The notes under the pieces: model-generated | Seen by the model: only the letters and a program-made list of their open reading frames with translations | Told to the model about the DNA's origin: nothing | The model's database searches: none | Assembly: GCF_009847015.1 (NCBI RefSeq) | Contig: NZ_WVEM01000003.1 | Span: forward strand, 124,001 to 188,000 | DNA length: 64,000 bases | Reading direction: 5' to 3' | Source: Sunxiuqinia indica | GTDB taxonomy: Bacteria; Bacteroidota; Bacteroidia; Bacteroidales; Prolixibacteraceae | Shown here: one piece after another, positions 23,129-37,114 of the stretch | Position numbering within the stretch: position 1 is the stretch's first letter | Layout of the letters: each line of letters opens with the position of its first letter | Position numbers and translations under genes: made by a program

Positions 23129-23505
23129 CCAAGTAATTGAAAACGAATATAGTTGTTTAGTCGGTCGATTATTTCAATTTTGTACCGGTTAAATAGCTTG
23201 TTCGATTCGTTGGCGCTCAAAAATACAAGTAGAAATCCAGTTTGACTCATTTTCCAATCGTGATAGGTATCTCCATTTTCGATGTTCGTTACGAAAATTG
23301 GTTTGATGTAGTGTTGCGGATTCAACCCAGCGCAAAACAAGGTGTGATTTGCATGTCGGATCGCTTCTGCCAATTCGTGCTCATCGCGTAGTCCCGCATC
23401 GTACAAGTCGGTGCAGGAATAACGTAATTCACGGTCATGCAATCCTTCAATTAGGGCGCGCAACATGTCAGTCTCGATTTCAGGATATTTGATTAAGCTT
23501 TTCAT
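23125..23505 (-). CDS. Uncharacterised 126-residue protein, possibly Rha/antirepressor-like
   Basis: I do not recognise this protein with confidence. It is soluble, has no signal peptide, and begins 13 bp after the cbpA stop in the same direction. The C-terminal half (HYIKPIFVTNIENGDTY, MSQTGFLLVFLSANES, then an amphipathic helix) loosely resembles the layout of phage Rha/antirepressor domains. It does not look like the CbpM chaperone modulator usually found beside cbpA. A role as a partner or modulator of the DnaJ-like protein is inferred only from position. Confidence 0.55.
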   Translation of the reverse strand: MKSLIKYPEIETDMLRALIEGLHDRELRYSCTDLYDAGLRDEHELAEAIRHANHTLFCAGLNPQHYIKPIFVTNIENGDTYHDWKMSQTGFLLVFLSANESNKLFNRYKIEIIDRLNNYIRFQLLG

Positions 23506-23518
23506 AAACTTTCTATTT

Positions 23519-24457
23519 TCAGTTAAAACTTAGCCTGAGTTTCTCAAACAGTTCTTTTTGCGTAGGAGTTAGCTTTTCGGGGATCTGTATCTGAAGTTGA
23601 ACCAACAGGTCGCCGGCTTGATTCGGTTTACCGTAAATTGGCATACCTTTCCCTTTTACTCTCAGTATTTTGTCGTTTTTAGTACCGGCCGGAATTTTGA
23701 TTTTTATCTTTCCGTCCATTGTTTTAACCTTTGTTTCGCCTCCCAGCACAGCGTCAAACAAGCTGATCTGGTGACGTATCTTCAGGTCATTCCCGATTCG
23801 CTCAAATGAACTGTGTGGCAACACACGCAGGGTGACCATCAGGTTGCCGGGATCACCACTGCCACTTCCTTTCCCTCCTTTGCCCTTAAGCCGCAACACT
23901 TGTTTGTCGTAGGCACCGGGTTTTATTGTCAGCTTGATTTTCTCCTGTTGGAGCTGAATAATCTTACTGGTTCCGTGGAAGGCTTCCTCCAGGCTAATTC
24001 GAAGATCCGCTTGAAAGTCCTGCCCCTTGAAACCAAAGTTCGCGTTTCTTCCCCTTGAGCTTCGGGAACTTCCTCTGCTTCCAAAAAATGCGTCAAAGAA
24101 ATCGGAAAAGCCGGATGAGCCAAAGCCGCCAAATACGTCGTTTAAGTCGTCTTCCGAATAGAATGTTTGTCCTTGCTGCCGGCCAAAACCTCCAAATGGA
24201 TTGTGTCCTGAGTAAGCTCCACCCTGTTCAAACCGGTTCCAATTTTCGCCCAGCTCGTCATATTTTTTCCGCTTGTCAGGGTTGCTCAATACCGCGTGGG
24301 CTTCGTTTATTTCCTTGAACCGGCTTTCTGTTTCTTTGTCACCCTGATTTTTGTCCGGGTGGTACTTAATAGCCAGTTTTCGGTAGGCTTTCTTTATTTC
24401 GGCCTGCGAAGCATTTTTATCAACTCCAAGTATTTTGTAATAGTCTTTGTATTCCAT
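23519..24457 (-). CDS. cbpA: CbpA-type DnaJ co-chaperone
   Basis: A 312-residue cytoplasmic protein. The J domain (1-70) has the HPD motif at residues 33-35, which stimulates DnaK ATPase. A Gly/Phe-rich linker with many Gly-Ser-Arg residues (about 75-140) follows, then the two beta-barrel substrate-binding domains of DnaJ C-terminal type ([24 protein letters not shown]). There is no cysteine-rich zinc domain, which separates CbpA from DnaJ. It lies downstream of two small heat-shock genes and a terminator, so it may also have its own promoter. It is expected to deliver misfolded proteins to DnaK. Confidence 0.88.
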
Positions 24458-24481
24458 TTCGGCTTCTTGTTTAAAATCAGC

Positions 24482-24517
24482 AAAAAAGGGGTGTCCGTTG
24501 GTTGGTCACCCCTTTTT
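24482..24517 (-). terminator. Terminator between hsp20 and cbpA
   Basis: A 10-bp stem (24484-24493 with 24507-24516) with a 13-base loop, bounded by A-run and T-run so that it works on either strand. On the minus strand it would end the hsp20 transcript. Confidence 0.75.
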
Positions 24518-24542
24518 CATTGAGGACGGGGCCACCGGTCCG

Positions 24543-24989
24543 TTAATTAATTTCAATTTTTTTTGCAGGTTTTGGCTTCGCTTCCTCTTTCTTGGGAATT
24601 GCAATTTTCAGTACTCCATTTTCATATTTAGCCGAAATCTTATCACTTTCTGCGGTCTGCGGCAAAGTGAACGAACGGCTAAACGATTGATAACTGAATT
24701 CACGTTGGGTAAACTGCTGTCCTTTTTTCGTTTCGCTGTCTACTTTTTTTTCAGATGAAATGGTCAGCAAGCTGTTTTCAAGGTCAATTTTGAAATCTTT
24801 TTTTTCAAACCCTGGTGCGGCCATTTCCACTTCAAACCCACCATCGTCTTCCTTAATGTTTACCGAAGGAAGTGTTGTGTTCGTGTTTGAAAAATTACGT
24901 GTTGAAAAATCCATCCAGTTACGGTCGAAAAGATCATTAAAAAATTTCGGCCATAATGGAAAGTTTTCGTGTTTTTTAATTCCATTCAT
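24543..24989 (-). CDS. Small heat-shock protein, Hsp20 family (copy 2)
   Basis: A 148-residue alpha-crystallin-domain protein. The core carries MAAPGFEKKDFKIDLENSLL, a tyrosine- and phenylalanine-rich strand (REFSYQSFSRSFTLP), and ENGVLKIAIPKKE before the C-terminal tail. It is an ATP-independent holdase that keeps unfolding proteins soluble. By eye about three quarters of the residues are shared with the copy at 25668-26120, which points to local duplication. It lies 33 bp after the lipoprotein gene and is probably co-transcribed with it. Confidence 0.9.
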   Translation of the reverse strand: MNGIKKHENFPLWPKFFNDLFDRNWMDFSTRNFSNTNTTLPSVNIKEDDGGFEVEMAAPGFEKKDFKIDLENSLLTISSEKKVDSETKKGQQFTQREFSYQSFSRSFTLPQTAESDKISAKYENGVLKIAIPKKEEAKPKPAKKIEIN

Positions 24990-25022
24990 AACAACCTTCT
25001 TTTTTAATGTTACACTTCTTCA

Positions 25023-25496
25023 TTATTGATCATCCCTTGGATGATTCTGATCATTTAACGGAAATTGGTCCATGAAAAACTGATTTTTCAGGGAGTCCAT
25101 TTGCCAGAACAATGAATCCATACGCTTCATGTTGTTGCGAAAACGCTCCGAAAAAAAGTCTTTTCTGTAGAAATCGTATTTCAGCAAAGAGTCCTCGAAA
25201 AAGAAATCATTAAAATAGGACTTGCCGGAGAACGGATACTGCTGGTTGAAGCGATTTTTGAATTCATTTAAGATGCTGTCGGCTAGTAAGGTATTACCCT
25301 CAATATTGGAGTAAAACCGGGTGTACGTTGAGTCGTATCTGATCAGGTTACCGTCATCATCAAATTCCTTGTTCACCAAGATATCGGTTTTTGGTGAAAT
25401 TGAATCGGTGGACGGATTTCCTTTTTTTTCGCCCTGACCGGTACAGCTGCCTAATAACAGGACGAATAGTAACATGGATAAGCAAATGCGTTTCAT
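25023..25496 (-). CDS. Uncharacterised lipoprotein between two hsp20 copies
   Basis: A 157-residue protein with a clear lipobox (LLLGSC, Cys18), then a highly charged region rich in Asp, Phe and Asn. Short repeats of the kind D-S-L-x-x-x (DSILNEF, DSLLKYDFY, DSLFWQMDSL) suggest a helical or coiled structure. No family is recognised. Its place between two chaperone genes suggests a stress-related envelope role, but this is by position only. The gene starts 171 bp after the first hsp20 gene. Confidence 0.65.
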   Translation of the reverse strand: MKRICLSMLLFVLLLGSCTGQGEKKGNPSTDSISPKTDILVNKEFDDDGNLIRYDSTYTRFYSNIEGNTLLADSILNEFKNRFNQQYPFSGKSYFNDFFFEDSLLKYDFYRKDFFSERFRNNMKRMDSLFWQMDSLKNQFFMDQFPLNDQNHPRDDQ

Positions 25497-25667
25497 AATC
25501 TTCCTTGTTTATTCGTTAGATGATTAATTTGGCAAATGCAAGCTATTCTGCTTTTTCAATTGGCAGGCCTTGTTTTCGACCTGCCTTTAGAATTTCCGGT
25601 TTAGGGTATTATTCTTACCCGGTGGTAAGGTCGAATACCGTTTGATTTTTGATGTTCCGGTTAATTC

Positions 25668-26120
25668 TTACTTGATTTCAATTTGTTTGGGTGGTTTTGG
25701 CTTAACCTCTTCTTTTTTGGGAATGTTAACTTTCAGAATTCCATTTTCATACCTGGCCGCGATTTTTTCACTTTCAACAGTTTGGGGCAAGGTAAATGAA
25801 CGGCTAAAGGATTGGTAGCTAAACTCACGCCTGGTAAATTGTTGCCCTTTTTTTGTTTCGTCTTCCATCTTTTTCTCTGAGGAGATGGTGAGCAGGCTGT
25901 TGTTCAAGTCGATTTTGAAATCTTTTTTATCGAAACCCGGAACAGCCACTTCAACTTCAAAACCATCGTTGTCTTCCTTAATGTTTACAGCGGGCAAAGT
26001 GGTATTCGTTGTTGAATAATTCCGGTTTGACCAGTCAAATAAATTCGTATCAAAAAAGCGGTCAAATAAATCCGGATACTGATTTGAAAATCTGGTTAGT
26101 GCCATCATTTTATCCTCCAT
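25668..26120 (-). CDS. Small heat-shock protein, Hsp20 family (copy 1)
   Basis: A 150-residue Hsp20 with an alpha-crystallin domain (VAVPGFDKKDFKIDLNNSLL, REFSYQSFSRSFTLP, ENGILKVNIPKKE). It heads the stress cluster. The ATG at 26120 gives MEDKMMALTRF; the ATG at 26108 or 26105 gives a more typical start. The protein is a holdase like its paralogue, and two copies may allow mixed oligomers. About 170 bp separate it from the lipoprotein gene. A 6-bp inverted repeat there (25562-25585) lacks a T-run, so read-through is likely. Confidence 0.9.
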   Translation of the reverse strand: MEDKMMALTRFSNQYPDLFDRFFDTNLFDWSNRNYSTTNTTLPAVNIKEDNDGFEVEVAVPGFDKKDFKIDLNNSLLTISSEKKMEDETKKGQQFTRREFSYQSFSRSFTLPQTVESEKIAARYENGILKVNIPKKEEVKPKPPKQIEIK

Positions 26121-26285: not shown

Positions 26286-26348
26286 CAGCCTGAAAGGTGG
26301 ATCAACACTGAATAAATCAGCTTTTGTTATTGATTGCTTTTCAGGCTG
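26286..26348 (-). repeat. Inverted repeat at the 3' end of the hydrogenase operon
   Basis: CAGCCTGAAA (26286-26295) and TTTCAGGCTG (26338-26347) are perfect complements with 42 bases between. The inner arm overlaps the stop of the NuoE-like gene. No T-run follows, so it may be an mRNA 3'-end stabiliser rather than a terminator. Confidence 0.45.
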
Positions 26349-26847
26349 ATTTGGCCTCGGAGGGACATCCTTGCTGGTACTCGGCAATAATTTTACTGAC
26401 CTGTTGTGGAGACACCCGTCCGTATACTTTTTCGCCCACTGTTACAACAGGGGCTAATCCGCAAGCACCCACACAGCGCAGGCTGCTAAGGGAGAATTTA
26501 CCGTCGGGCGATGTTTGCCCGACTTCAATGTTCAATTGGCGTTTAAATTCGGTGAGCACCTGTTCGGCACCGCGCACGTAGCAGGCAGTTCCCATGCAGA
26601 TGGATATCGGATGTTCACCCTGTGGCAGCATGGTAAAGAACGAATAGAAGGTGACCACACCGTACACTTTGGCCAGCGACATTTTTAATTCTTTGGCAAT
26701 TACTTCCTGCACTTCGGCAGGTAGGTAACCCAGTTTATTTTGTACCTGGTGCAAGACGTTGATTAACTCACCTTCCTGGTTGTCAAACTGAGCGCAGATT
26801 TCTTTTATTTGATTGATTGTATTTTCTGCAAGTTTTATTTTCGGCAT
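26341..26847 (-). CDS. hndA: NuoE/HndA-type [2Fe-2S] subunit of the bifurcating hydrogenase
   Basis: A 168-residue cytoplasmic protein with an N-terminal four-helix region and a thioredoxin-like [2Fe-2S] domain. The four ligands are Cys84 and Cys89 (ICMGTACY) and Cys125 and Cys129 (LRCVGACG), the normal NuoE spacing. It passes electrons between the flavoprotein subunit and the other clusters. It is the last gene of the operon, 49 bp after the catalytic subunit. Alternative naming as HydC of the HydABC system is equally valid. Confidence 0.9.
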   Translation of the reverse strand: MPKIKLAENTINQIKEICAQFDNQEGELINVLHQVQNKLGYLPAEVQEVIAKELKMSLAKVYGVVTFYSFFTMLPQGEHPISICMGTACYVRGAEQVLTEFKRQLNIEVGQTSPDGKFSLSSLRCVGACGLAPVVTVGEKVYGRVSPQQVSKIIAEYQQGCPSEAKSA

Positions 26848-26896
26848 CGTGTTTTTGTTTTACAATTAAATTCGTTTTCTGACTATGACTCATTTT

Positions 26897-28648
26897 TTAG
26901 CTCCTGTCAAAATACTCGGTGTGCAGCAAGTGATGTGCTTTTTCACTCATTGGCTCTCCTAAGAACTCGTCATACAATTTTTTGATGTATGGGTTTTCGT
27001 GCGACTTTCGGATGCTCTTGTTTTTGTCTTCAGCATAAATCGCCTTTTGACGTTTTTTCAAAATTTCTACATCTCCGTGATGGTAGGGTTGTCCGCCGCC
27101 TCCAATACAACCTCCGGGGCACGACATGATTTCAATGGCGTGGAATTCACTATTGCCGGCCTTGATCTCTTCCAGTAATTTCCGTGCATTTCCAAGTCCG
27201 TGTGCAATACCAATATTGATGGGGAGTCCGTCAAAATCGATGGTTGCCTTACGCAATCCTTCCATGCCACGCAGCTCCTCAAAATCCAGCCGTTCCAGCG
27301 TTTTGCCGGTTTGGACCTCGTAAGCCGTGCGAACGGCAGCTTCAATAACACCACCTGTTGTCCCGAAGATGACACTGGCTCCGGTTGATTCTCCCATTGG
27401 ATTGTCAAATTCTTCGTCGGGCAAAGACTTGAAATCAATGTTTGCCAGATTGATGATTTGTGCTAATTCTCTTGTTGTTAGGGCATAATCTACATCCGGG
27501 TTGCCGTCAACAGCAAATTCGTCTCGGCTGCTTTCGTATTTCTTGGCCACACAGGGCATGATGGAAACGACCACCAGGTCTTCTCGTTTTACCGCCATTT
27601 TTTCGGCCAAATAGGTTTTTGCTATCGCACCAAACATTTGTTGAGGAGAACGGGCTGTTGATGGAATATCTTTCATCCCCGGAAAATGATGCTCGAAAAA
27701 TTTCACCCAAGCAGGGCAGCAGGAGGTTAGTATTGGTAGTTTGACCTCCTTGTCGCCTGCAAGGTATTTGTTGAGGCGGCCGAGCAATTCTGTTCCTTCT
27801 TCCATAATGGTGAGGTCGGCAGCAAAGTCGGTGTCAAATACATGATCAAAACCTAAACGGCGCAGGGCAGCAGCCATTTTACCCGTAACCAATGAGCCGG
27901 CTTCCATGCCAAATTCTTCACCTAGTGCAGCACGTACGGCAGGTGCAGTTTGTACAATAACTGTTTTTGTTGGATCGGAAAGTGCCCGAATGACAGCTCC
28001 GGTTTCATCCACTTCAGTTAATGCGGCGGTGGGGCAAACGGCTACACATTGTCCGCAGTAAGTGCAGGATGAATGATCCAAGTTCATTTCGAATGCCGGT
28101 GATACCACAGCCTCGAATCCACGGTTGATGGTTGAAAGCACTCCAACAGTTTGTACTTCGTTACACATGGTTTCGCAGCGTCGACAAAGAATACATTTGT
28201 CGATCTCGCGAATGATAGCAGGGCTGGTGTCCTCACGGTAGTGTGATTGCTCCCCCTGATAATGGATTTCTCGGATTCCAAGGTGATGAGCTATATTCTG
28301 TAAATCGCACTTCCCCGATTTTGCACAGATCAGGCAGTCGGCAGGATGGTCAGACAAAATCAGCTCAACAATGGTTCGACGGGCGTTAACCGCACGCATG
28401 GAGTGAGTGCTGATTTCCATTCCATCTGCTACTTCAGTACAGCAAGCCGGAGCCAAATTGCGTCTTCCTTTTACTTCTACAACACAAACGCGGCAACCGC
28501 CGGGTTTGTTTTCAATATTCATATCATGCAAATGCATGTGGCAAAGCGTTGGTACATCAATGCCAATACTGGATGCAGCTTCCAATAAGGTTGTTCCTTT
28601 TTTAACAACCAGGGATTTATTGTCGATGGTTAAATTGATCATTTCCAT
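26897..28648 (-). CDS. hndD: [FeFe] hydrogenase catalytic subunit, group A (bifurcating, HndD/HydA type)
   Basis: A 583-residue protein that reduces protons or oxidises H2. Clusters in order: N-terminal [2Fe-2S] (Cys36, 52, 55, 69), the His-Cys3 [4Fe-4S] (His101, Cys105, 108, 114), two [4Fe-4S] (Cys152/155/158/205 and Cys195/198/201/162), then the H-cluster. The three signatures are intact: TSCCPAW (Cys310, 311), MPCVAKKYE (Cys366) and MSCPGGCIGGGGQP (Cys510, 514). With NuoE-, NuoF- and HndB-like partners it forms a group A3-type complex that couples NADH and reduced ferredoxin to H2. The C-terminal tail contains HHLLHTEYF, typical of the family. No maturase genes hydE, hydF or hydG are in the window. 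Confidence 0.95.
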   Translation of the reverse strand: MEMINLTIDNKSLVVKKGTTLLEAASSIGIDVPTLCHMHLHDMNIENKPGGCRVCVVEVKGRRNLAPACCTEVADGMEISTHSMRAVNARRTIVELILSDHPADCLICAKSGKCDLQNIAHHLGIREIHYQGEQSHYREDTSPAIIREIDKCILCRRCETMCNEVQTVGVLSTINRGFEAVVSPAFEMNLDHSSCTYCGQCVAVCPTAALTEVDETGAVIRALSDPTKTVIVQTAPAVRAALGEEFGMEAGSLVTGKMAAALRRLGFDHVFDTDFAADLTIMEEGTELLGRLNKYLAGDKEVKLPILTSCCPAWVKFFEHHFPGMKDIPSTARSPQQMFGAIAKTYLAEKMAVKREDLVVVSIMPCVAKKYESSRDEFAVDGNPDVDYALTTRELAQIINLANIDFKSLPDEEFDNPMGESTGASVIFGTTGGVIEAAVRTAYEVQTGKTLERLDFEELRGMEGLRKATIDFDGLPINIGIAHGLGNARKLLEEIKAGNSEFHAIEIMSCPGGCIGGGGQPYHHGDVEILKKRQKAIYAEDKNKSIRKSHENPYIKKLYDEFLGEPMSEKAHHLLHTEYFDRS

Positions 28649-28660
28649 AGTTTTCTTTGT

Positions 28661-30454
28661 TTACGCGATTTTAATTGCATCAAACTTACATTTGTCATAG
28701 CAGGCTCCACATTTGATGCAAAGCGATTGGTCGATGTAGTGTGGATTGCGCTTTTCTCCTGAAATCGCTCCAACGGGGCAGTTTCTGAAGCACAGTGTAC
28801 AGCCGGTACATTTTTCATCGGTAATAACATATTGCAACAGAGCTTTACATTGACCTGCCGGGCATTTGCCATCATTAACGTGAGCTTCGTATTCGTGCAT
28901 GAAATTGTCTAAGGTTGAAAGAATCGGGTTTGGAGAAGTCTGTCCCAGTCCGCACAATGACGAATCCTTAATGACATGACTAAGCATGCGTAGTTTGGTC
29001 AAGTCTTCCGGCGTTCCTTTTCCGTCAGTAATTTTTTCGAGAATTTCGTACAACCGCTTGTTCCCGATCCGGCAAGGTGTGCATTTTCCACAGGATTCGT
29101 CCAGGGTAAATTCAAGGTAGAATTTGGCGATTGATACCATACAGTCATCTTCATCCATTACGATCATACCTCCAGATCCCATCATAGAGCCGGCCGCAAG
29201 TAAGTTATCATAGTCGATTGGAGTATCCAGAAAATCGTTGGTTAAACAACCACCGGATGGGCCACCAGTCTGCACCGATTTAAATTCTTTACCATTTTTA
29301 ATCCCTCCACCTATATCATAAATGACTTCGCGAAGAGTAATGCCCATCGGAACTTCGATCAATCCAACGTTGTTGATTTTTCCGGCCAGAGCAAAAACTT
29401 TGGTTCCTTTTGATTTTTCGGTTCCAATGCTGCTAAACCAATCTGCTCCCTTGGTAATGATGGGAGGGATGTTGGCAAACGTTTCCACGTTGTTCACGTT
29501 GGTCGGCTTTCCAAGGTAGCCCTCTTGTGATGGGAATGGTGGTTTAAATGTTGGCTCGCCACGCTTGCCTTCCATAGAGTGGATCAGGGCTGTTTCTTCG
29601 CCACACACAAATGCACCGGCTCCGTAGCGGATTTCAATTTCGAAACTGAAATCGGAACCCAAAATATTTTCACCAAGTAAGCCATACTCGCGAGCTTGGG
29701 TTAAGGCCGTTTTTAATCGCTGAATAGCCAGCGGATACTCTGCGCGGATATATACCAAGCCTTTGTTTGCTCCGATGCAGTAACCGCAAATGGCCATTGC
29801 TTCGATGACGGTGTGCGGATCACCTTCCAGAATGGAGCGATCCATAAATGCGCCGGGGTCGCCTTCATCTGCATTGCAAACCACGTACTTTTGTTCGTTC
29901 TCGACCTTGCGGGTGATGTCCCATTTCAGTCCGGTTGGGAAACCGCCGCCTCCACGTCCACGAAGGCCTGAATCCATAATCATTTTAATGGCGCTTTCGG
30001 GTGTTAGTTCTTCCAGACATTTTCCGAGAGCTGAATAGCCATCGTTTCCAATATATTCTTCGATATTTTCAGGATTGATAAAACCGCAATTTCGCAAAGC
30101 AATACGGACTTGTTTTTTGTAAAAGTCCATGTTTTTGCTCTCCGTAATTTGCACTTTTGTATTGGGGTCGGTGTACAATAGATGATCAACCTGACGTCCT
30201 TTCACAATGTGCTCGTTTATAATTTCTCTGGTATCGTCAGGTGTAACTGAAACATAGAAGGTATTATCCGGTTGGACTTTCACAATGGGGCCTTGTTCGC
30301 AAAAACCAAAACATCCGGTATGAATTACCTGAACGTCATTTTCGAGGCCAACTTCCTGTAATTGATTTTTAAAATTGTTTTTTATCTGTTCACTTTGTGA
30401 AGCCTTACATCCGGTACCTCCACAAACCAACAGGTGCATTTTGTAGTCAGTCAT
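28661..30454 (-). CDS. hndC: NuoF/HndC-type NADH-binding flavoprotein of the hydrogenase
   Basis: A 597-residue subunit. An N-terminal thioredoxin-like [2Fe-2S] domain (Cys11, 16, 48, 52) is followed by the NuoF core: FMN/NADH loop RGRGGGGFPTGLKW and GAGAFVCGEETALIHSMEG. Next comes a [4Fe-4S] site ESCGKCTPCRIG, and a C-terminal 2[4Fe-4S] ferredoxin domain (CTGCTLCFRNCP, CIKCGACYDKC). It is the NAD(H) and probably bifurcating-flavin site. It lies 12 bp before the catalytic subunit gene. The layout equals HndC or HydB of known bifurcating hydrogenases. Confidence 0.95.
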   Translation of the reverse strand: MTDYKMHLLVCGGTGCKASQSEQIKNNFKNQLQEVGLENDVQVIHTGCFGFCEQGPIVKVQPDNTFYVSVTPDDTREIINEHIVKGRQVDHLLYTDPNTKVQITESKNMDFYKKQVRIALRNCGFINPENIEEYIGNDGYSALGKCLEELTPESAIKMIMDSGLRGRGGGGFPTGLKWDITRKVENEQKYVVCNADEGDPGAFMDRSILEGDPHTVIEAMAICGYCIGANKGLVYIRAEYPLAIQRLKTALTQAREYGLLGENILGSDFSFEIEIRYGAGAFVCGEETALIHSMEGKRGEPTFKPPFPSQEGYLGKPTNVNNVETFANIPPIITKGADWFSSIGTEKSKGTKVFALAGKINNVGLIEVPMGITLREVIYDIGGGIKNGKEFKSVQTGGPSGGCLTNDFLDTPIDYDNLLAAGSMMGSGGMIVMDEDDCMVSIAKFYLEFTLDESCGKCTPCRIGNKRLYEILEKITDGKGTPEDLTKLRMLSHVIKDSSLCGLGQTSPNPILSTLDNFMHEYEAHVNDGKCPAGQCKALLQYVITDEKCTGCTLCFRNCPVGAISGEKRNPHYIDQSLCIKCGACYDKCKFDAIKIA

Positions 30455-30476
30455 TATTCGAGTAGTTTATAGTGGG

Positions 30477-30866
30477 TCAAAGGGTTTTGTAGCTAACCGG
30501 TATGATGCCATCTACCAGTTCATTCAATTTAATATGCTTGTCGATAATTTCCTGTGCCTTCGTCTTATTTACATCGCCATAAACGACAGGTTGGTTGCCG
30601 GGAATGGTAAGCTCAATAGTTGGTTCGGCATAGCAATATCCCATGCATCCGGTTTGGGTAACCAGAGCATCGATTCCTTGGTGTTCGAGTTCTTCGATAA
30701 AATAATTCATCGTGTCTTTTGCTCCTGAAGCGATTCCGCAGGTGGCCATCGAAACTTTTATCTGAATCAGGTTTTCGGGATGATCTCCTTTTTCTCGAAG
30801 TTTAATTTTTGACTGAACCTCTTCTTTCAATTTTTTAAGGTCAGCAAGTGATTTAACTTTTGTCAT
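30477..30866 (-). CDS. hndB: HndB-type [2Fe-2S] ferredoxin-like subunit
   Basis: A 129-residue thioredoxin-like protein with a helical N-terminus. Visible cluster ligands are in ATCGIASGAK (Cys43) and GCMGYCYAEP (Cys74, Cys78), the usual HndB pattern. It begins the structural part of the hydrogenase operon, 22 bp before the NuoF-like gene and 92 bp after the last regulatory gene. That 92-bp gap could contain a second promoter, but no perfect TAnnTTTG box was found there. It probably serves as the fourth subunit. Confidence 0.85.
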   Translation of the reverse strand: MTKVKSLADLKKLKEEVQSKIKLREKGDHPENLIQIKVSMATCGIASGAKDTMNYFIEELEHQGIDALVTQTGCMGYCYAEPTIELTIPGNQPVVYGDVNKTKAQEIIDKHIKLNELVDGIIPVSYKTL

Positions 30867-30958
30867 GGTATATTGTTTATGGTTTTTTAATCAGTAAGTT
30901 ATGTCTTCTGGTTTACAAATTTCACTCGATTTTAACAATTAGAATCTAATTTTCGTCA

Positions 30959-31507
30959 TTATTCGCTTATTTGAATCTGTTCTAAATTACCCAGAATCAT
31001 CTCTTTCAAAAATAGTTGTATCTCAGGTGTTGAAAGCGGTATTCCATCAAGCTCCTTTTTTATTTCACGGGTGTCGAATTCAAATGTACCCTTGCTGGTT
31101 TGATGCGTGTAAAGAAGGTCAGCCTGGGTTTCATTCGAAATCAAGATCAACAGGCATCCTGCAATATCGCCAATAATAGGCCTGTCGAAATGATGAAATC
31201 CAAAACTGACAGTTAATGTCGTTCCGATTTTTTCGGTAGATTGAAGTTGAAACTGCCCGTTTGTTTGCTCCGCGTTTTGTTTCAGTAACGGAATTCCCAA
31301 CCCAACTTTTCGGGTTGTCCTTGAGGTGAAAAAAGGATTTTCAGCTTGCTTCACTTGGTGTTGCTTCATGCCCTCTCCATCGTCTTTTATTTGGATGGAC
31401 AATAAGTCTTCGTCAGGCAATTCCTTTACGTGAATCTGGATTAAGCCGGCATTGGCTCTGATGGAGTTTTGTGCAATGTCTAAAATATGGAGAGACAACT
31501 CATTCAT
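30959..31507 (-). CDS. Stand-alone HATPase (GHKL) protein of the hydrogenase cassette
   Basis: A 182-residue GHKL ATP-binding protein. N box Asn14 in LDIAQNSIRANA, G1 box DDGEGM (42-47) and G2 box GLGIPLLK (69-76). There is no histidine-containing dimerisation domain and no sensor region, so it is not a normal histidine kinase. The last 70 residues are unassigned. It overlaps the PHP gene by 4 bp. Similar ATPases beside bifurcating hydrogenases are, from memory, seen in Clostridia. It may phosphorylate another member of the cassette or act as a nucleotide sensor. Confidence 0.75.
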   Translation of the reverse strand: MNELSLHILDIAQNSIRANAGLIQIHVKELPDEDLLSIQIKDDGEGMKQHQVKQAENPFFTSRTTRKVGLGIPLLKQNAEQTNGQFQLQSTEKIGTTLTVSFGFHHFDRPIIGDIAGCLLILISNETQADLLYTHQTSKGTFEFDTREIKKELDGIPLSTPEIQLFLKEMILGNLEQIQISE

Positions 31508-32247
31508 GATTCAATTTTTACAAATCTTCCGTTCTTTTGATTTAAAGCGCATCGAAGTTCCTGGAACGTGGGCTCAAACAGGTGAAAAGAGGTGTGTGCT
31601 GAGCCAACATCTTCTATGTAATGAGCGTCGGACGCTGTGATCAGGCTTACTTCCTTATGAATGTCGTACTGCCGCCTGATTTTGTTTTCCGAAGCAAATT
31701 TTGAAAGTTGCATACCATCAACATTCATATCAGAGGGCAGATAGCCCAGTTGACTATATATACTACTGATGGGGCGGTCGATATGGGCTGGAATGAAAAT
31801 TCCGTTAAGCTGGTGCGTGTATTTTTCAATTGTTTCCAAATCAACCTGAAGTGGACTCAACAAATAGTGTGGTGAATGATGAACGATGTTATTTCGATCG
31901 TCTACTATTACCTGATGACCATTGTACTCCGGCTTGTTGGGTATTTTTGGCAGATGTTGATCTAGAAACTGCTGAAATTGATCTCGGGTATAGTCATCTT
32001 CAAACAGGCAAATTGCATGGACTTCTTCCTTGCTGTTCACTTCACATCCATTGATTACGAGCAGGTTTGTTCCTTCGGCATGTTTTTTTACCATCGCACA
32101 TTGCCTGGTCGCATTATGATCGGTGATCGCGATAATATCAATTCCTCGGTCAATAGCTTTTTGTACAATTTTATCAGGGCTCATTTCCAAATCAGCACAT
32201 GGCGACAAAACGGTGTGAATATGTAAATCGGCCCGATATTTTTTCAT
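31504..32247 (-). CDS. PHP-domain phosphoesterase of the hydrogenase cassette
   Basis: A 247-residue PHP-fold metal-dependent hydrolase. It has the opening motif DLHIHTVLSPCADLEMSP, then AITDHNATRQC, GCEVNSKEE, IPAHIDRP and ITASDAHYIEDVG, supplying the His/Asp metal ligands. The family includes histidinol phosphatase, polymerase-linked phosphoesterases and pAp or RNA phosphoesterases. Its start overlaps the DRTGG stop by one base, and its 3' end overlaps the ATPase by four. This tight coupling suggests a signal-turnover job, for example hydrolysing a nucleotide signal. The substrate is unknown. Confidence 0.8.
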   Translation of the reverse strand: MKKYRADLHIHTVLSPCADLEMSPDKIVQKAIDRGIDIIAITDHNATRQCAMVKKHAEGTNLLVINGCEVNSKEEVHAICLFEDDYTRDQFQQFLDQHLPKIPNKPEYNGHQVIVDDRNNIVHHSPHYLLSPLQVDLETIEKYTHQLNGIFIPAHIDRPISSIYSQLGYLPSDMNVDGMQLSKFASENKIRRQYDIHKEVSLITASDAHYIEDVGSAHTSFHLFEPTFQELRCALNQKNGRFVKIES

Positions 32248-32585
32248 TATTGCTGTTTCAACAACGCATAAAGTTTTCCGCTTATATCGAAGGTTGAATC
32301 AGAGGTTGACAGAATGGGGATTTGCTCCTCATTGCTGTGTTCGATCGTGCTTTTGTGGGGCTGCAGTCCTTTTACCAGAATGACAGCTGCCAAATCTTTC
32401 AGCGAAGCAATAGCCATTACATTTTGATGTACCTGCAGCGTAATCCAAAGCTGTTCTTCCTTAGCATTGCCCATCACATCGCTCAATAAGTCGGAAACAT
32501 ACGCTCCGCTAATTTCCCGGTCAAGTCCTTTTTCTCCGGAAATTACTTTTAAATTTAGTTGTTCTATTAAATCAGAAACCTTCAT
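32247..32585 (-). CDS. DRTGG-domain protein (copy 2)
   Basis: About 112 residues from the ATG at 32585. The upstream in-frame ATG at 32648 would add 21 charged residues and overlap the HydS-like gene much more. Overlap from 32585 is 14 bp. It contains VSDLLSDVMG, which aligns with SDLMSDVL in the paralogue at 34361-34705, so both are the same DRTGG-like fold. DRTGG domains occur in phosphotransacetylase and CBS-linked regulators and are thought to bind small ligands or mediate protein contacts. Role here is unknown. Confidence 0.75.
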   Translation of the reverse strand: MKVSDLIEQLNLKVISGEKGLDREISGAYVSDLLSDVMGNAKEEQLWITLQVHQNVMAIASLKDLAAVILVKGLQPHKSTIEHSNEEQIPILSTSDSTFDISGKLYALLKQQ

Positions 32586-33948
32586 TTCTTTTTCCTCGTT
32601 TATTACAATCAGCCTGAAATCTTTTTTCTCCCCACTTCTTTTCCACATTTCGGAAAGCCTTTGTTGTGCTGATTTTTCCTTCGTCTTCCCACATTTGTTG
32701 CAGAAATACGCAATCAGACATTTTTGCTTTTCCGTTTACCATGTCTTCGGCTAGTGCCTGGCAGTTTGGAGCACCGCATGCACCGCAATCAACGCCAGGT
32801 AAAAAGCAGATTATCCGTTGGGCCCGGTTCATTTTTTCCAGTGCCCGAACACGATCTTTATCCAGACTAAATGCAGGTTTGGGGGTGATTTTATCGGCGA
32901 TTAGTTTTTGTTTTATCTCTTTCGAACCTTTTATTGCTTCACTATCTTTTAGCTTCCAGGCTTGTGGGTAACGTTTTGCACGGCGCTCAAGCCTGGTTAC
33001 GGTTAAAAAACGATTGCCCGTCATCAAAATTCCTCCGGCACAACTTTGGTCGCAGGCACGAAGTTCCAAAAAGTCGATCTCCGGTACCTCTTCGTTTTCC
33101 AGGCGTTCCAAAAATTTAATGACATTGTGAATGCCGTCAATGGCCATGCTGCGTTCTCCAAAGTGAATCGATTCGCCACGGGTCAGGCTCCACAGAATGC
33201 CGTCGCGACTTAAATTTTCGCGCAAATGACTGGTGTCTTCCGCTTCCTTGTCATTGATAACTTGCATCACCCGGTTGTATAAATCATTCATATTGATGAT
33301 GCCATCAGCAATCGACTCTTTTTCACCAACCGGGCTTTTCACCGAACTAATTTTTGCATTGCAAGGGGTAATGTAAAACAGGCCAATTTCATCCTCTTTA
33401 GCACCTTGTTTTTTCAATTCGTTAATGGCAAAGTGAGCTCCCAAATCGTGCGGTGATTTCCGCTGAATCAGGTTTTCGGTTAACGAAGGGTAGCGAATCT
33501 GTATCAGGCGTACAATTGCCGGGCAAAAACTAGATATGTGTGGTTTATTGTTGGGTGAAGTTTTGCAGTATTGCTTCATCGAGTCCTTCAAAATGCCAAT
33601 TGGCTGTTCCACTTCAAAAGCGTGGGTAAAGCCAATTTTTAGCAGGGCTGCATAGATCTGATTTTCAGTATATTTTTCAGGAAACTGGCCAATCATAACA
33701 GCCGGAAATAAAGCCACCCTGTATTTGAATGTTTGGGAAATCTTTAAGTCATCCTGCTCCACGTAGATAGCTTTGGCCGGGCAGGCACGCATACAGTGTC
33801 CACAGTCAACGCATCGTTCTTTCGATATTTCAGCTAACCCACCAACTACTCGAATAGCTTCGGTCGGACAAGCTTTCATGCAATGGATACACCCAATGCA
33901 TTTCTTTTCGTCGACTGTTAATGCGTGATATGTTTTTGCCGTTACCAT
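32572..33948 (-). CDS. HydS-like sensory-type [FeFe] hydrogenase homologue
   Basis: A 458-residue protein. Two [4Fe-4S] clusters (Cys17/20/23/27 and 46/49/52/56) precede an H-cluster domain with divergent signatures: SSFCPAIVRL (Cys142), ITPCNAKI (Cys196) and LRACDQSCAGG (Cys299, Cys303). All four H-cluster cysteines remain, but the CC of TSCCP is F-C, so the proton-relay cysteine is missing. MPCxxKxxE is only TPCNAK, and GGGQP is absent. A C-terminal four-cysteine cluster follows (Cys388, 391, 396, 413; DCGACGAPNC), then a basic tail. These traits fit sensory group C/D proteins. It overlaps the RsbW-like gene by one base, so it probably signals to it. Confidence 0.85.
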   Translation of the reverse strand: MVTAKTYHALTVDEKKCIGCIHCMKACPTEAIRVVGGLAEISKERCVDCGHCMRACPAKAIYVEQDDLKISQTFKYRVALFPAVMIGQFPEKYTENQIYAALLKIGFTHAFEVEQPIGILKDSMKQYCKTSPNNKPHISSFCPAIVRLIQIRYPSLTENLIQRKSPHDLGAHFAINELKKQGAKEDEIGLFYITPCNAKISSVKSPVGEKESIADGIINMNDLYNRVMQVINDKEAEDTSHLRENLSRDGILWSLTRGESIHFGERSMAIDGIHNVIKFLERLENEEVPEIDFLELRACDQSCAGGILMTGNRFLTVTRLERRAKRYPQAWKLKDSEAIKGSKEIKQKLIADKITPKPAFSLDKDRVRALEKMNRAQRIICFLPGVDCGACGAPNCQALAEDMVNGKAKMSDCVFLQQMWEDEGKISTTKAFRNVEKKWGEKRFQADCNKRGKRNEGF

Positions 33949-34364
33949 TAAAAATGATTGACCATTTTAACTGTTGTTCCCTTATTTACGGTTGACTCAA
34001 TCGTTAGCTCATCCGTATTTTTTTTGATGTTGGGAAGCCCCATTCCTGCTCCAAATCCCATTTCTCTTACTTTTTTACTCGCCGTGGAGTAACCTTCCTG
34101 CATTGCCAAATCAACATCGGCTATTCCCGGTCCTTTGTCGGAGATTACCGTCGTAATTTTGTCTGATTCAATATGAACCTGAATAAGGCCTTCAAAAGCA
34201 TGTGCTACTACATTCACTTCTGCCTCGTACATGGCAATTACGATGTTTTTGATGCAACGTGAATCAACCCCCAATTGCTTGAGCATTTTTTTGATTTCAC
34301 TCGAAGCATGACCGGCTCGCGAAAAATTTCCTCCCTCTATTTGAAACTCCAGATTCATATTCAA
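33948..34364 (-). CDS. RsbW/SpoIIAB-like anti-sigma serine kinase
   Basis: A 138-residue GHKL kinase of the anti-sigma type. N box AMYEAEVNVVAHA (Asn51), G1 box DKGPGI (76-81) and G2 box GFGAGMGLPNIKK (103-115). In Bacillus such kinases bind sigma factors and phosphorylate a STAS-domain antagonist, which a SpoIIE-type phosphatase reverses. Here the phosphatase is encoded at 35933-37114, but no STAS protein or sigma factor is nearby. The gene overlaps the DRTGG gene by 4 bp and HydS by 1 bp. Confidence 0.85.
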   Translation of the reverse strand: MNMNLEFQIEGGNFSRAGHASSEIKKMLKQLGVDSRCIKNIVIAMYEAEVNVVAHAFEGLIQVHIESDKITTVISDKGPGIADVDLAMQEGYSTASKKVREMGFGAGMGLPNIKKNTDELTIESTVNKGTTVKMVNHF

Positions 34365-34705
34365 TAAACTGGTTTTAGTCCTGCCTGGTACAACAGACCA
34401 CTGGCTTTAAATAGCGTGAATGGCGATTCCAAAATGCACATGTTATTTTCTTTAGCAAGCGCAAGCATCTCATCGTTTAATTTCTTATTGCGCACAAACA
34501 CAATGAATTTGATGTCTGCCATCTCAGATGTGCGGATCGTTTGTAAATTACACAATCCGGTAATCAGGAGCAGATTGTCGGTGTCCAGTGTCAGGACATC
34601 ACTCATTAAATCAGAGCTGTACCCTCGCTCTATCGTTGCTGATGAATACTTATTTCCACAGATGATTGTGGCAGATAAAAGTTCGCAGATTTGACTGACT
34701 TGCAT
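34361..34705 (-). CDS. DRTGG-domain protein (copy 1), first gene of the hydrogenase operon
   Basis: About 114 residues from the ATG at 34705. An ATG at 34777 would add 24 residues, but those lie upstream of a good promoter whose start point falls near 34721. The sequence (MQVSQICELLSA, GYSSDLMSDVLTL, LLLITGLCNLQTIRTSEM) is of the DRTGG type and is a paralogue of the protein at 32247-32585. It overlaps the kinase gene by an ATGA junction. It may replace the missing STAS partner in the switch; this is a guess. Confidence 0.75.
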   Translation of the reverse strand: MQVSQICELLSATIICGNKYSSATIERGYSSDLMSDVLTLDTDNLLLITGLCNLQTIRTSEMADIKFIVFVRNKKLNDEMLALAKENNMCILESPFTLFKASGLLYQAGLKPVY

Positions 34706-34724
34706 GTTCTTGTAAAGATTTTTG

Positions 34725-34756
34725 CAAAGATCACCGAAAAGTTCGAAATGGAACAA
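34725..34756 (-). promoter_or_regulatory. Promoter of the ten-gene hydrogenase operon
   Basis: On the minus strand a TTG (-33, 34754-34756) lies 21 bases before GATCTTTG (34725-34732), which differs from TAnnTTTG by one base. It places the start point near 34721 and supports the start codon at 34705. Confidence 0.5.
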
Positions 34757-34777
34757 AATTTCGTCTACATAATGCAT

Positions 34778-34961
34778 TTAAACCTCAAATTTAGATTGAT
34801 TTGAAATAAGCCTTTTCAGTTTTTAATTTTTAATTTAGCGGTAGTGGGAGGACGGTGCCGTGTTCAGGCACAGTGGACAGGTAGAAGTAACAGTGATTGG
34901 TAAGTGAAAACCAAAATTAAGTCGTTAGTCGTAATGACAACTGTCTCGTAGCCAACCTACA
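34778..34961. promoter_or_regulatory. Divergent intergenic region between the two signalling transcripts
   Basis: This region separates the minus-strand hydrogenase operon from the plus-strand PAS/SpoIIE pair. It holds a 5-bp inverted repeat GTGCC/GGCAC (34855-34871) and a 7-bp dyad with one mismatch, GTCGTTA/TAATGAC (34921-34938). Either may bind a regulator. No plus-strand TAnnTTTG box was seen, so the PAS gene may use an alternative sigma factor. Confidence 0.35.
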
Positions 34962-35933
34962 ATGATCAATGAAGAATTAGCTAATTATCCAATACCAACG
35001 ACAATGATATATGATGACCAGTCTTTTCATTCGGATATGATTCAGTATCCGGATTTGCATCAGAAAATTATTGATGCTTTACCGATCCCGATTTTCTATC
35101 GCGATATCAACGGCATATATAAAGCCACCAACAAAGCACATGAGAATTTTATAGGCTTAAAAAAGGAAGAGATCATTGGCAAAACGGTGTTTGACGTTCA
35201 GCCGACGGATATTGCTGAAATGTATGCCCGGCGTGATCAAGAGTTATTTGAAACGCCGGTTGATCAGAGCTATGAAACTAAGTTTCGTTTATCGGACGGA
35301 TCAATGCACGATGTGATTTTCAACAAAGCTGTGATTCGAAATGATGAGAATGAAATTATCGGCATCGTCGGTTCGATCCTCGATATAACTGATCGGAAGA
35401 AGGCAGAACGAAATCTGGAACAAGCCCAGGAAGCTTCCGTTATTGCATCTGCAATGATGCACAAAATCAGAGCTGGAGTCATTATCGTAGATCAGGATTT
35501 TAAGGTCATTGATTCAAACCAGGGATTCGCACGCCTGTTTGGGGAAGAGTTGGAAGAACTGTATGATACAATACCCGGATTGCAAGGAGCCGAACTCAGT
35601 TCACTAATTCCGGAGGTGGTTTTTAAAATGTTCGCTTCGTTAATGGTCTCAGGCGAAAATATGTTGGAACGCGATCTGAAAATACAAAACCGCTTGTTGC
35701 ATGTTTCGGTGATTTCGATCTACAAAAATAGAGTTGTTGGGGCATTGATTCGAGATATGTCAGCTCCTTTGTTAGTCAGGGAGGAAATCATTAGCCGGGC
35801 ACAACGCGTGAACAAGCAAAATCTGGATACCGTGCAAAAGATTGCTTTTTTGTTGGGTGAAAATGCGGCTCAAACGGAGGAATTACTCAACTCCATTATT
35901 CAATCGTATAAATATGGGGAGGACGACAACTAA
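34962..35933 (+). CDS. Double-PAS sensor protein
   Basis: A 323-residue soluble protein. Two PAS domains: residues about 30-145 (LPIPIFYRDINGIYKATNKA, IVGSILDITDRKKAER) and about 150-265 (AGVIIVDQDFKVIDSNQGFA). The C-terminal 55 residues form an amphipathic helix pair (KIAFLLGENAAQTEELLNSI). No kinase, cyclase or DNA-binding domain is present, so it must act through a partner. The stop overlaps the ATG of the SpoIIE phosphatase by one base, making the phosphatase the obvious partner. PAS ligands such as heme, flavin or FeS cannot be told from sequence. Confidence 0.82.
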   Translation: MINEELANYPIPTTMIYDDQSFHSDMIQYPDLHQKIIDALPIPIFYRDINGIYKATNKAHENFIGLKKEEIIGKTVFDVQPTDIAEMYARRDQELFETPVDQSYETKFRLSDGSMHDVIFNKAVIRNDENEIIGIVGSILDITDRKKAERNLEQAQEASVIASAMMHKIRAGVIIVDQDFKVIDSNQGFARLFGEELEELYDTIPGLQGAELSSLIPEVVFKMFASLMVSGENMLERDLKIQNRLLHVSVISIYKNRVVGALIRDMSAPLLVREEIISRAQRVNKQNLDTVQKIAFLLGENAAQTEELLNSIIQSYKYGEDDN

Positions 35934-37114
35934 TGGCTGATTATCACTTTGATGTTGATATTCAACAGCAACTACCTAAAGGTGAGGTAGTTTGTGGTGA
36001 TGTGTTTTACACCCGTCGAATTAAGGAAGAAGGTCGTGTAATTATGGTTTTGTCTGATGGAATTGGACATGGTGTAAGGGCGAATGTTTTAGCCACATTA
36101 ACGGCTTCAATGGCTTTAAGCTATTCCTCCTTACACACGGAACCTGATGTGGCAGCCAAGGTTTTTATGCGTGCTTTGCCTCGCAGCAGCGATGGAAAAG
36201 AAAGCTACGCCACATTCACGATTATTGAAATTGAAGTAGATGGATTGGTTCGGATCGTGAATTATGATAATCCACCAACTTTAATTTTCCGCAAAGGCGA
36301 ATACTTTTCGCCTAACGAAATTGAAGTAAATATCAGGGGAGAAGAGAATGTAGGCAAAATTTTGCGTATCCGAGAGTTCACACCGATTAAAGGCGACCGG
36401 ATTATTTTTATGACCGATGGAGTTGTCCAAAGTGGGTTGGGGGGTAAAAAATATCCGATGGGCTGGGGAATAGAGCAGGTGCATGAGTTTGCAAAAAGGC
36501 AGATTTCCCGCGAAAATAAAATTTCGGCTACTCGTCTGGCACGGAAGATTTTAAACCAGGCTGCCATGAATGATGGATTTAATTTGAAGGATGATACCAG
36601 TTGTGGCATTGTTCACTTTCGAAAACCCCGAGAGTTTATGCTGATAACGGGACCTCCGTTCTATAAAATTAAAGATGTGGATTTTGTGAAACGAGTGACA
36701 GAGTTCCCGGGCAAGAAAATTATATGTGGTGGTACAACTGCTGAAATTATTGCCCGCGAACTGGGTTTGGAAGTCAATATCCAGCATCGGTATGCTGGAG
36801 AGTCGATTCCTCCGGCGGCCGAAATGGAAGGTTTTGAAATGGTGACGGAGGGCGTGTTGACGATGGGAAAAGTGGAGGAAGTTCTTGAAAACTACACCCG
36901 TGAAACCCGCTTGGGAAACAGCCCGCCGGAAGAAGTGGTGAAATTGTTGCTGGAGCACGATATTATTCACATTATTGTAGGTACTCGAATTAATTGGGCT
37001 CATCAGGATCCGGAGCAGCCAATTGAGCTTGAGATACGCAAGTTTGTTGTAAAACGGGTGGTTCGTTTACTGGAAGAACGTTTTTTAAAGAATGTAACTT
37101 TAGAGTTGGTCTAA
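35933..37114 (+). CDS. SpoIIE-type PP2C phosphatase with an unassigned C-terminal domain
   Basis: A 393-residue protein. The N-terminal 230 residues are a SpoIIE/RsbU PP2C domain with metal-binding motifs VCGDVF (Asp23), LSDGIGHG (Asp42), FMTDGVVQSG and DDTSCGIV. Residues 235-393 (FMLITGPPFYKIKDVDFV, GKKIICGGTTAEIIARELGL, HDIIHIIVGTRINWAH) form a domain I cannot name. It would dephosphorylate a partner of the RsbW-like kinase, with the PAS protein as its switch. From memory, PP2C-linked sensory hydrogenases are a described subgroup. The target is not identified. Confidence 0.85.
   Translation: MADYHFDVDIQQQLPKGEVVCGDVFYTRRIKEEGRVIMVLSDGIGHGVRANVLATLTASMALSYSSLHTEPDVAAKVFMRALPRSSDGKESYATFTIIEIEVDGLVRIVNYDNPPTLIFRKGEYFSPNEIEVNIRGEENVGKILRIREFTPIKGDRIIFMTDGVVQSGLGGKKYPMGWGIEQVHEFAKRQISRENKISATRLARKILNQAAMNDGFNLKDDTSCGIVHFRKPREFMLITGPPFYKIKDVDFVKRVTEFPGKKIICGGTTAEIIARELGLEVNIQHRYAGESIPPAAEMEGFEMVTEGVLTMGKVEEVLENYTRETRLGNSPPEEVVKLLLEHDIIHIIVGTRINWAHQDPEQPIELEIRKFVVKRVVRLLEERFLKNVTLELV

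Follow-up and report, generated by a model that had tools for sequence, protein, structure and literature searches.

Results

A kinase cassette with a sensory hydrogenase on electron-bifurcating enzymes

We analysed a stretch of 64,000 nucleotides of the Sunxiuqinia indica genome (contig NZ_WVEM01000003.1, positions 124,001 to 188,000; hereafter the window), in which a gene cassette for a serine kinase and a sensory [FeFe]-hydrogenase adjoins the genes of a bifurcating hydrogenase. On the minus strand, from 34777 to 26341, the genes run DRTGG1 (a small DRTGG protein), a SpoIIAB/RsbW-like kinase, HydS, DRTGG2, PHP, a free GHKL ATPase, hndB, hndC, hndD and hndA, and a double-PAS protein and a SpoIIE phosphatase are encoded divergently on the plus strand, from 34962 to 37114. 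That such a kinase cassette, sensory hydrogenase included, sits on bifurcating enzymes is well supported by the genomic comparisons below. The initial annotation of this DNA had proposed an H2-sensing phospho-switch built into a bifurcating hydrogenase operon. All twelve genes are open reading frames, and these, together with domain scans, confirmed its inventory and gene order.

The constancy of the set was followed with profiles built from the window proteins in three surveys, comprising 80 genome loci (those with the highest scores out of at least 522), 56 loci from sampled genomes of the window's order (the 58 order genomes with HydS, less the window's own and a fragment, G487) and 40 Clostridia loci out of 117 Clostridia genomes with HydS. 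Counts are given in that order. Loci with short flanks were excluded, with at least 1.2 kb required upstream for DRTGG1 and the kinase, 1.5 kb downstream for DRTGG2 and PHP, and 5 kb upstream plus 6 kb downstream for hndC and SpoIIE; four duplicates among the 176 loci were retained (L151, L184, L186 and L219, equal to L043, L074, L069 and L103). DRTGG1 stands by HydS, fusions counted, at 76/76, 52/53 and 39/40 loci and the kinase at 76/76, 53/53 and 38/40. Because the order DRTGG1-kinase-HydS recurs at nearly all of the 176 loci with enough flank, it is not a matter of chance. DRTGG2 (64/74, 43/52 and 36/39) and PHP (65/74, 44/52 and 35/39) are usually near, and hndC lies within the flanks at 36/51, 29/42 and 24/37 loci. 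The search of Bacteroidota and Clostridia that the initial annotation had called for found the core at nearly all HydS loci, and the finding it had named as fatal to its reading, cassette genes apart from hydrogenase genes in most genomes, did not appear. One Clostridia locus, L236, has HydS without any cassette gene.

Whole genomes show the same association. In the order sample of 198 genomes, HydS of the type described below is present in 58, a close hndD (above 850 bits) in 74, the kinase in 62 and SpoIIE in 66; hndD occurs in 54 of the 58 genomes with HydS versus 20 of the 140 without. Among 245 Clostridia genomes, hndC is found in 114/117 with HydS and 82/128 without. One genome counted as lacking HydS, G382, carries PHP and the ATPase at a contig end (L309), and the absence may be an assembly gap. 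At five Parabacteroides loci (L028, L048, L049, L054 and L067) the cassette stands apart from hnd, with the ATPase directly following in three. Where no hnd gene was in view of the cassette, an HndD-like protein (E ≤1e-30) was found in 16 of the 17 genomes searched, all but a metagenome-assembled genome (MAG) of 1.6 Mb.

DRTGG1 and the kinase

The window kinase passes the Pfam cut-off for HATPase_c_2 (49.6 versus 27.4), and its best NCBIfam match is SpoIIAB, under the cut-off of that model (65.9 versus 135). It has the GHKL fold with the N-box Glu and Asn and the ATP lid that mark the SpoIIAB/RsbW family, elements with catalytic roles in GHKL kinases. Among 135 sequences, E47, E49, N51 and D76 are kept in 100%, G78-I81 in 99-100% and G103-L110 in 96-100%. 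DRTGG1 of the window falls below the Pfam DRTGG cut-off (16.6 versus 25.2 bits), which its relative in L228 and the fusion protein of L101 pass and that of L193 just misses. Its motif SDLMSDV contains S59, present in 100% of 133 sequences, and D56 and D60 are present in 99%; in a profile alignment the DRTGG protein AF1212 has a different sequence at this place.

In three loci from two phyla, L101 (Tepidanaerobacter) and L193 and L194 (Bacteroidota), DRTGG1 and the kinase form a single protein, and these fusions are the only kinase frames of at least 250 amino acids among 183 loci with a kinase match, duplicates included. Pfam detects both domains in the L101 and L193 fusions, with the DRTGG match of L193 just short of its cut-off, and the AlphaFold model of the L101 fusion resembles both SpoIIAB (1til, TMt 0.84) and AF1212 (2ioj, TMt 0.78). 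The fusions lead us to infer that the kinase has DRTGG1 for its partner instead of a STAS antagonist. Domain scans gave no STAS match in the twelve window proteins, and the four STAS matches of the genome lie elsewhere, so that no STAS antagonist is encoded with the kinase; the classical partner switching that the initial annotation had cited for RsbW-like kinases is not shown by this set. The set resembles SpoIIAB/SpoIIAA and RsbW/RsbV in the kinase fold, the catalytic-type residues and the gene for a small partner immediately before the kinase gene. It differs from them in that this partner is a DRTGG-domain protein, there is no sigma factor and a sensory hydrogenase comes third in the order. 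Two STAS frames and a second RsbW-like kinase are found at C33:22669-22965, C38:142153-142413 and C1:37779-38141 of the same genome, possible distant partners.

HydS is of the group D type

Domain scans of the window HydS detect Fe_hyd_lg_C and FeS domains and no PAS domain. Over 138 distinct sequences, C142 and C196 are kept in 138, C299, C303, C388, C391 and C396 in 137 (one row is truncated) and C413 in 136 (two are), so that every untruncated HydS has the four H-cluster cysteines and the C-terminal Cx2Cx4Cx16C motif. The two N-terminal [4Fe-4S] motifs have all eight cysteines in the window protein, and among the 138 rows C20 is absent in four and C23 in one. Position 141, equivalent to C299 of CpI, is F/Y/A/S, and position 194 (M353) is T/S. 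Since the replaced C299, the M353 to T/S change, the C-terminal FeS motif and the absence of PAS match the marks given in PMC8163306 (papers are cited here from extracts), the window HydS is of group D (M2e) type, an assignment by sequence features rather than by a tree. The same features are described for TamHydS of Thermoanaerobacter mathranii, including its two N-terminal [4Fe-4S] motifs and H-domain, and TamHydS is encoded upstream of a bifurcating hydrogenase with a histidine-kinase-like ATPase adjoining. The extract of PMC8163306 names no DRTGG, PHP or PP2C partner for it, whereas such neighbours of the window-type protein could be counted over three surveys. HydDB group C3 is defined by an H-domain fused to PAS beside a phosphatase; here HydS has no PAS and the PAS protein has no H-domain. 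The HydS-like H-cluster protein of the initial annotation is therefore upheld in its H-cluster residues, although it is of group D type and not the PAS-bearing kind.

In the genome scan, L030 of Sunxiuqinia elliptica came closest to the window, with a HydS 85% identical to the window's. Four loci, L283 to L286, from four of the 62 kinase genomes, lack HydS alone and keep the other cassette genes as far as their contigs reach, and HydS therefore looks like an exchangeable input of the cassette.

The NADH module is common to the loci

HndD of the window scores over the NCBIfam cut-off for group A6, and HndB is below its Pfam cut-off (19.1 versus 24.8). NuoE- and NuoF-like subunits and a group A catalytic subunit stand in one operon, as in Bfu/HydABC-Hnd enzymes, and bifurcation is predicted from these genes. 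Not all cassettes have an [FeFe] subunit alongside. Three of the four HydS genomes without a close hndD carry an hndC-type subunit at the cassette: L179 has hndB, hndC and hndA without hndD, and in L193 and L194 hndA and hndC are joined by genes for a NuoG-like protein and two Nfn-like subunits (in L193, where domains were scanned, the molybdopterin domain is over its cut-off). In L195 and L196 the cassette stands with HndA/B/C, an HndD-like protein of about 587 residues and HdrA-, HdrB-, HdrC-, FlpD- and [NiFe]-type genes (domains scanned mainly in L195, with the large subunit and Hdr genes named by eye), and the scan found no H-domain match in the L195 HndD-like protein. In L286 (6416-13950) the cassette without HydS is on a formate-dehydrogenase-like subunit of 900 residues, encoded between hndC and hndA. 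Because the cassette occurs on versions of the NADH module with formate dehydrogenase, with Nfn-like subunits or with [NiFe]/Hdr genes, the factor common to its loci looks like this module and not [FeFe] catalysis. The label "hydrogenase operon" holds insofar as the cassette goes with hydrogenase across genomes, but is too narrow for complexes that share only the NADH module. BfuABC enzymes have been defined with just such varied partners, [FeFe], [NiFe], Fdh and Nfn, around a core of HndA/HndC/HndD type (PMC9304861); the kinase cassette is not described in the extract of that paper, where the word kinase does not occur. A further locus, L234 (1138-10105), has the cassette with hndA, ATPase, hndB and hndC, without hndD, beside an RnfC-like gene (by profile and eye).

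Some genomes that lack the cassette encode an HndC shorter by about 110 residues. The N-terminal [2Fe-2S] domain of HndC is present in 103/103 proteins with the kinase in the locus versus 11/18 without (p = 5e-7), a post hoc count of HndC uncut by the locus end and with core identity of at least 65% that ignores kinship and includes duplicates; among HndC above 700 bits the figures are 111/113, with L193 and L194 as the exceptions, and 12/21. Because its presence tracks the kinase, this domain may be a contact of the cassette. The domain is missing from HndC of L287, L288, L289, L304 and L306 (486-499 amino acids), L299 and L302, all of them loci without the kinase, and the HndC core of L299 carries a fused HndB-like domain.

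DRTGG2, PHP and the free ATPase

DRTGG2 is over the Pfam cut-off (32.1 versus 25.2 bits), as PHP, the HATPase_c domain of the free ATPase, PAS and SpoIIE are over theirs. The PHP positions that we take to be the usual metal ligands are kept at 97-100%. In 23 of the 40 Clostridia loci the gene of the free ATPase is flanked by hndA and hndB.

The SpoIIE phosphatase forms a separate arm

SpoIIE retains D23, D42, D162 and D221, presumably the metal-binding aspartates of PP2C. After the PP2C domain comes a conserved C-terminal domain, at residues ~230-393, with a GTRIN-AHQDP stretch; the best 50 Foldseek matches to the model are PP2C-type, and none of them accounts for this domain. The kinase/phosphatase set of the initial annotation was thus correct as to a SpoIIAB-type kinase, PHP and PP2C with conserved catalytic-type residues; SpoIIE itself, within the flanks at only 8/51, 4/42 and 0/37 loci, is a separate arm and not part of the core cassette. 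We dropped the idea of a rare accessory, SpoIIE being present in 66 of the 198 order genomes; hndD occurs in 61 of these 66 versus 13 of the 132 without SpoIIE.

The phosphatase is usually found at a separate locus with a group C HydS, which directly precedes it at 39 of 49 distinct loci (the group C label of L256 is weak, with only 199 residues of the upstream gene visible); a PAS protein does so, by label, at 7 and neither at 3. L140 was rejected as a PAS-type locus, because it is cut and the same gene in L266 has a group C HydS upstream. The remaining six PAS loci form one clade (100/100): that of the window, that of Sunxiuqinia, two from genomes of the window's family and two from MAGs. 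The SpoIIE tree, run with L140 labelled PAS2, counted two changes to PAS, which on our reading reduce to one origin after relabelling. The PAS-SpoIIE pair is encoded divergently to the cassette in the window, Sunxiuqinia and their kin; several Marinilabiliaceae have it just upstream in the same direction. Over residues ~143-320 the PAS protein shares 39-49% identity with the tail of each of the 17 compared group C HydS longer than 600 residues, in which its first PAS domain has no match at E 1e-3. Because the tail matches and the first PAS does not, the H-domain is, judged from these alignments, exchanged for a PAS domain beside the same phosphatase in the window's clade. This agrees with a PAS domain modulating the phosphatase, as the initial annotation had it; a reading of H2 by the phosphatase arm does not fit in this clade, where the H-domain is gone.

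HydDB lists phosphatase-linked C3 sensory [FeFe]-hydrogenases with an undetermined role (PMC5037454), and group C HydS with a Ser/Thr phosphatase is discussed in PMC6776011 and PMC11837493. The window's SpoIIE belongs with the arm of group C3, HfsB/HfsC of Thermoanaerobacterium and HydS of Ruminococcus albus, its relatives mostly following a group C HydS with a PAS tail; the window's clade differs from these in having PAS in the place of the H-domain, and the window HydS in being of group D type. Just before group C HydS in L037, L038, L041, L042, L044 and L294-L298 is a small [2Fe-2S] thioredoxin-like protein (82-109 amino acids where the length is known; scanned in L297).

Gene arrangement in the window

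The six upstream genes overlap, as the initial annotation had stated (1 to 14 bp): DRTGG1/kinase by 4 bp (34361-34364), kinase/HydS by 1 bp (33948), HydS/DRTGG2 by 14 bp if DRTGG2 starts at the ATG at 32585, DRTGG2/PHP by 1 bp (32247) and PHP/ATPase by 4 bp (31504-31507). PAS and SpoIIE overlap by 1 bp (35933). The gaps from the ATPase through hndB, hndC and hndD to hndA are 92, 22, 12 and 49 bp. DRTGG1 probably starts at M25, since its first 11 residues are absent in more than 90% of the 133 sequences, the lengths have a median of 114 and, among 24 sequences, M25 hardly varies. The intergenic block holding TAAATTTG recurs in Sunxiuqinia elliptica (by eye), and this element on the minus strand resembles what we take to be a Bacteroidota -7 box. 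Beside the hydrogenase operon, at 23125-26120, are two Hsp20-like genes, a DnaJ/CbpA-like gene and a CbpM-like gene (by eye).

Table 1. Genes and intergenic region of the cassette and hydrogenase locus, in window coordinates
Feature	Position	Strand	Remarks
DRTGG1, small DRTGG protein	34361..34777	-	Likely ATG start 34705 (114 amino acids); conserved SDLMSDV with Ser59 (open-frame numbering)
SpoIIAB/RsbW-type serine kinase (GHKL ATPase)	33948..34364	-	TTG start
HydS, group D (M2e) type sensory [FeFe]-hydrogenase	32572..33948	-	2x[4Fe-4S], H-domain, C-terminal Cx2Cx4Cx16C, no PAS
DRTGG2, second small DRTGG protein	32247..32585	-	Longer open frame from 32648 less likely
PHP metallophosphoesterase	31504..32247	-	Pfam PHP over cut-off; ligand conservation
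Free GHKL (histidine-kinase-like) ATPase, C-terminal extension	30959..31507	-	Pfam HATPase_c
HndB-like [2Fe-2S] thioredoxin-fold protein	30477..30866	-	Below Pfam cut-off
HndC, NuoF-like FMN/NADH subunit, N-terminal [2Fe-2S] thioredoxin-like domain	28661..30454	-	Domain scans
HndD, group A catalytic [FeFe]-hydrogenase subunit	26897..28648	-	NCBIfam group A6
HndA, NuoE-like [2Fe-2S] subunit	26341..26847	-	Pfam
Double-PAS protein	34962..35933	+	C-terminal half homologous to group C HydS PAS tail; N-terminal PAS not
SpoIIE-type PP2C phosphatase	35933..37114	+	Extra conserved C-terminal domain, residues ~230-393
Divergent intergenic region	34778..34961	.	Minus-strand TAAATTTG element

Discussion

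We propose that the cassette is a redox- or H2-gated serine-phosphorylation module controlling electron-bifurcating enzymes built on the HndA/B/C NADH module, a reading to which we give about an even chance. The H2 signal, the phosphorylation of DRTGG1, its target, its direction and its output are all parts that we infer. The group D HydS would meet H2 at its H-cluster and pass its state to the adjoining SpoIIAB/RsbW-type kinase. The kinase would act on its partner DRTGG1, in the place of a STAS antagonist, with the invariant serine of SDLMSDV as the most likely phosphoacceptor, and DRTGG2, PHP (a probable phosphoesterase) and the free GHKL ATPase would complete the module. Because no sigma factor, STAS protein or DNA-binding family was seen conserved beside the cassette, the output would affect the bifurcating complex itself, in its activity or assembly, more probably than transcription; a candidate point of contact is HndC with its N-terminal [2Fe-2S] domain. 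The second arm, in the same metabolism, would consist of a SpoIIE phosphatase controlled by a group C sensory hydrogenase; in the window's clade the sensor of this arm has lost its H-domain, and the phosphatase, under a PAS domain, would read another signal. The phospho-switch of the initial annotation thus survives in its kinase, H-cluster-competent HydS, PHP and PP2C and in its tie to hydrogenase, and needs revision in that SpoIIE is not core, the window proteins have no STAS match and the operon label is too restrictive.

Several observations weigh against this proposal. The AlphaFold model of the L101 fusion is confident in each half (mean predicted local distance difference test score, pLDDT, 92.3) but does not fix the halves against each other (predicted TM-score, pTM, 0.59); no contact between them is seen, and the model speaks neither for nor against docking. 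At 15/51, 13/42 and 13/37 loci hndC is outside the flanks, and L193 and L194 are two cassette loci whose HndC has no detected N-terminal domain (that of L193 starts, by eye, with an HndB-like stretch). A genome of the window's family, G486 (L287), keeps hndABCD and PAS-SpoIIE, and the kinase cassette was not found in it. Rex-like and CRP-like families were seen by eye among the neighbours at 3 and 4 of 83 loci, two small STAS frames and another RsbW-like kinase are encoded elsewhere in the genome, and SpoIIE is equally frequent in hndD genomes with group D HydS (45/54) and without it (16/20, p = 0.74). The co-occurrence tests are, moreover, Fisher tests that ignore kinship. G486 also offers a natural comparison strain for the window.

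The SpoIIE frequency bears on the possibility that the kinase and SpoIIE arms are independent and merely share a hydrogenase neighbourhood. Since it does not depend on group D HydS, kinase and phosphatase need not share a substrate, and the preference of SpoIIE for separate group C loci and its absence from all 37 full-flank Clostridia loci point the same way, although the pair does adjoin the cassette, divergently or in the same direction, in the window's relatives and several Marinilabiliaceae. We regard independence of the arms as a real possibility, somewhat short of even, and it is compatible with the proposed module as far as the kinase arm is concerned.

Ordinary partner switching, in which the targets of the kinase would be a STAS protein and a regulator from elsewhere in the genome while HydS and SpoIIE set hydrogenase expression, appears unlikely. 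The kinase does belong to the SpoIIAB/RsbW family, and the distant STAS frames (131 and 115 amino acids) and the other RsbW-like gene could supply the remaining parts. Phosphatases, kinases and PAS sensors lie upstream of bifurcating hydrogenases in C. thermocellum (PMC3492117), and transcriptional control through sensory hydrogenase, kinase and phosphatase genes has been proposed for R. albus and C. thermocellum (PMC6776011, PMC3492117). Yet the domain fused to the kinase is DRTGG, STAS is missing from the window set, and clustering of the neighbours at 83 loci gave no recurring transcription factor, the largest further family occurring at 7 of them. That the genes encode assembly, repair or turnover factors, among which the GHKL proteins would be chaperone-like ATPases, HydS would serve as a scaffold or in electron transfer and PHP would be a cofactor phosphoesterase, is quite improbable: the ATPase between hndA and hndB, HydG-like genes near 7/83 and HydF-like genes near 4/83 loci (named by eye) and the persistence of the kinase set without HydS on the formate dehydrogenase of L286 fit it, but the kinase keeps its catalytic-type Glu and lid, the proton-path Cys is missing from HydS, and low rates are described for the characterised group D enzyme (PMC8163306).

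The proposed module could be extended to a push-pull phospho-switch, with a kinase arm (DRTGG1, kinase and group D HydS) and a phosphatase arm (group C HydS and SpoIIE) each gated by its own sensory [FeFe]-hydrogenase. DRTGG would then be a new class of phospho-antagonist replacing STAS, control would be post-translational, perhaps through the N-terminal [2Fe-2S] domain of HndC, and would extend to the whole class of electron-bifurcating NADH enzymes, and in the window's clade a domain swap would have rewired the H2 signal to a PAS signal. Taken with all of its parts, this joint reading is rather unlikely.

Literature searches, with subscription journals mostly outside them, found no description of a DRTGG-kinase-HydS set. 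The word DRTGG is absent from the extracts of PMC5113046 and PMC4374699, and the combination of DRTGG with hydrogenase led to a single paper, PMC10102598. The interaction partner of group D HydS is still sought, and its identification has been called critical (PMC13104023, 2026). The DRTGG1-kinase pair is a concrete candidate for that partner, with the fusions as evidence and one conserved candidate serine. The cassette is an old and widely shared gene set, and through phosphorylation and dephosphorylation it may tune the neighbouring hydrogenase. If the proposal is true, it would show the way in which many fermenting anaerobes adjust their bifurcating enzymes, on which the choice among H2, formate and other products depends.

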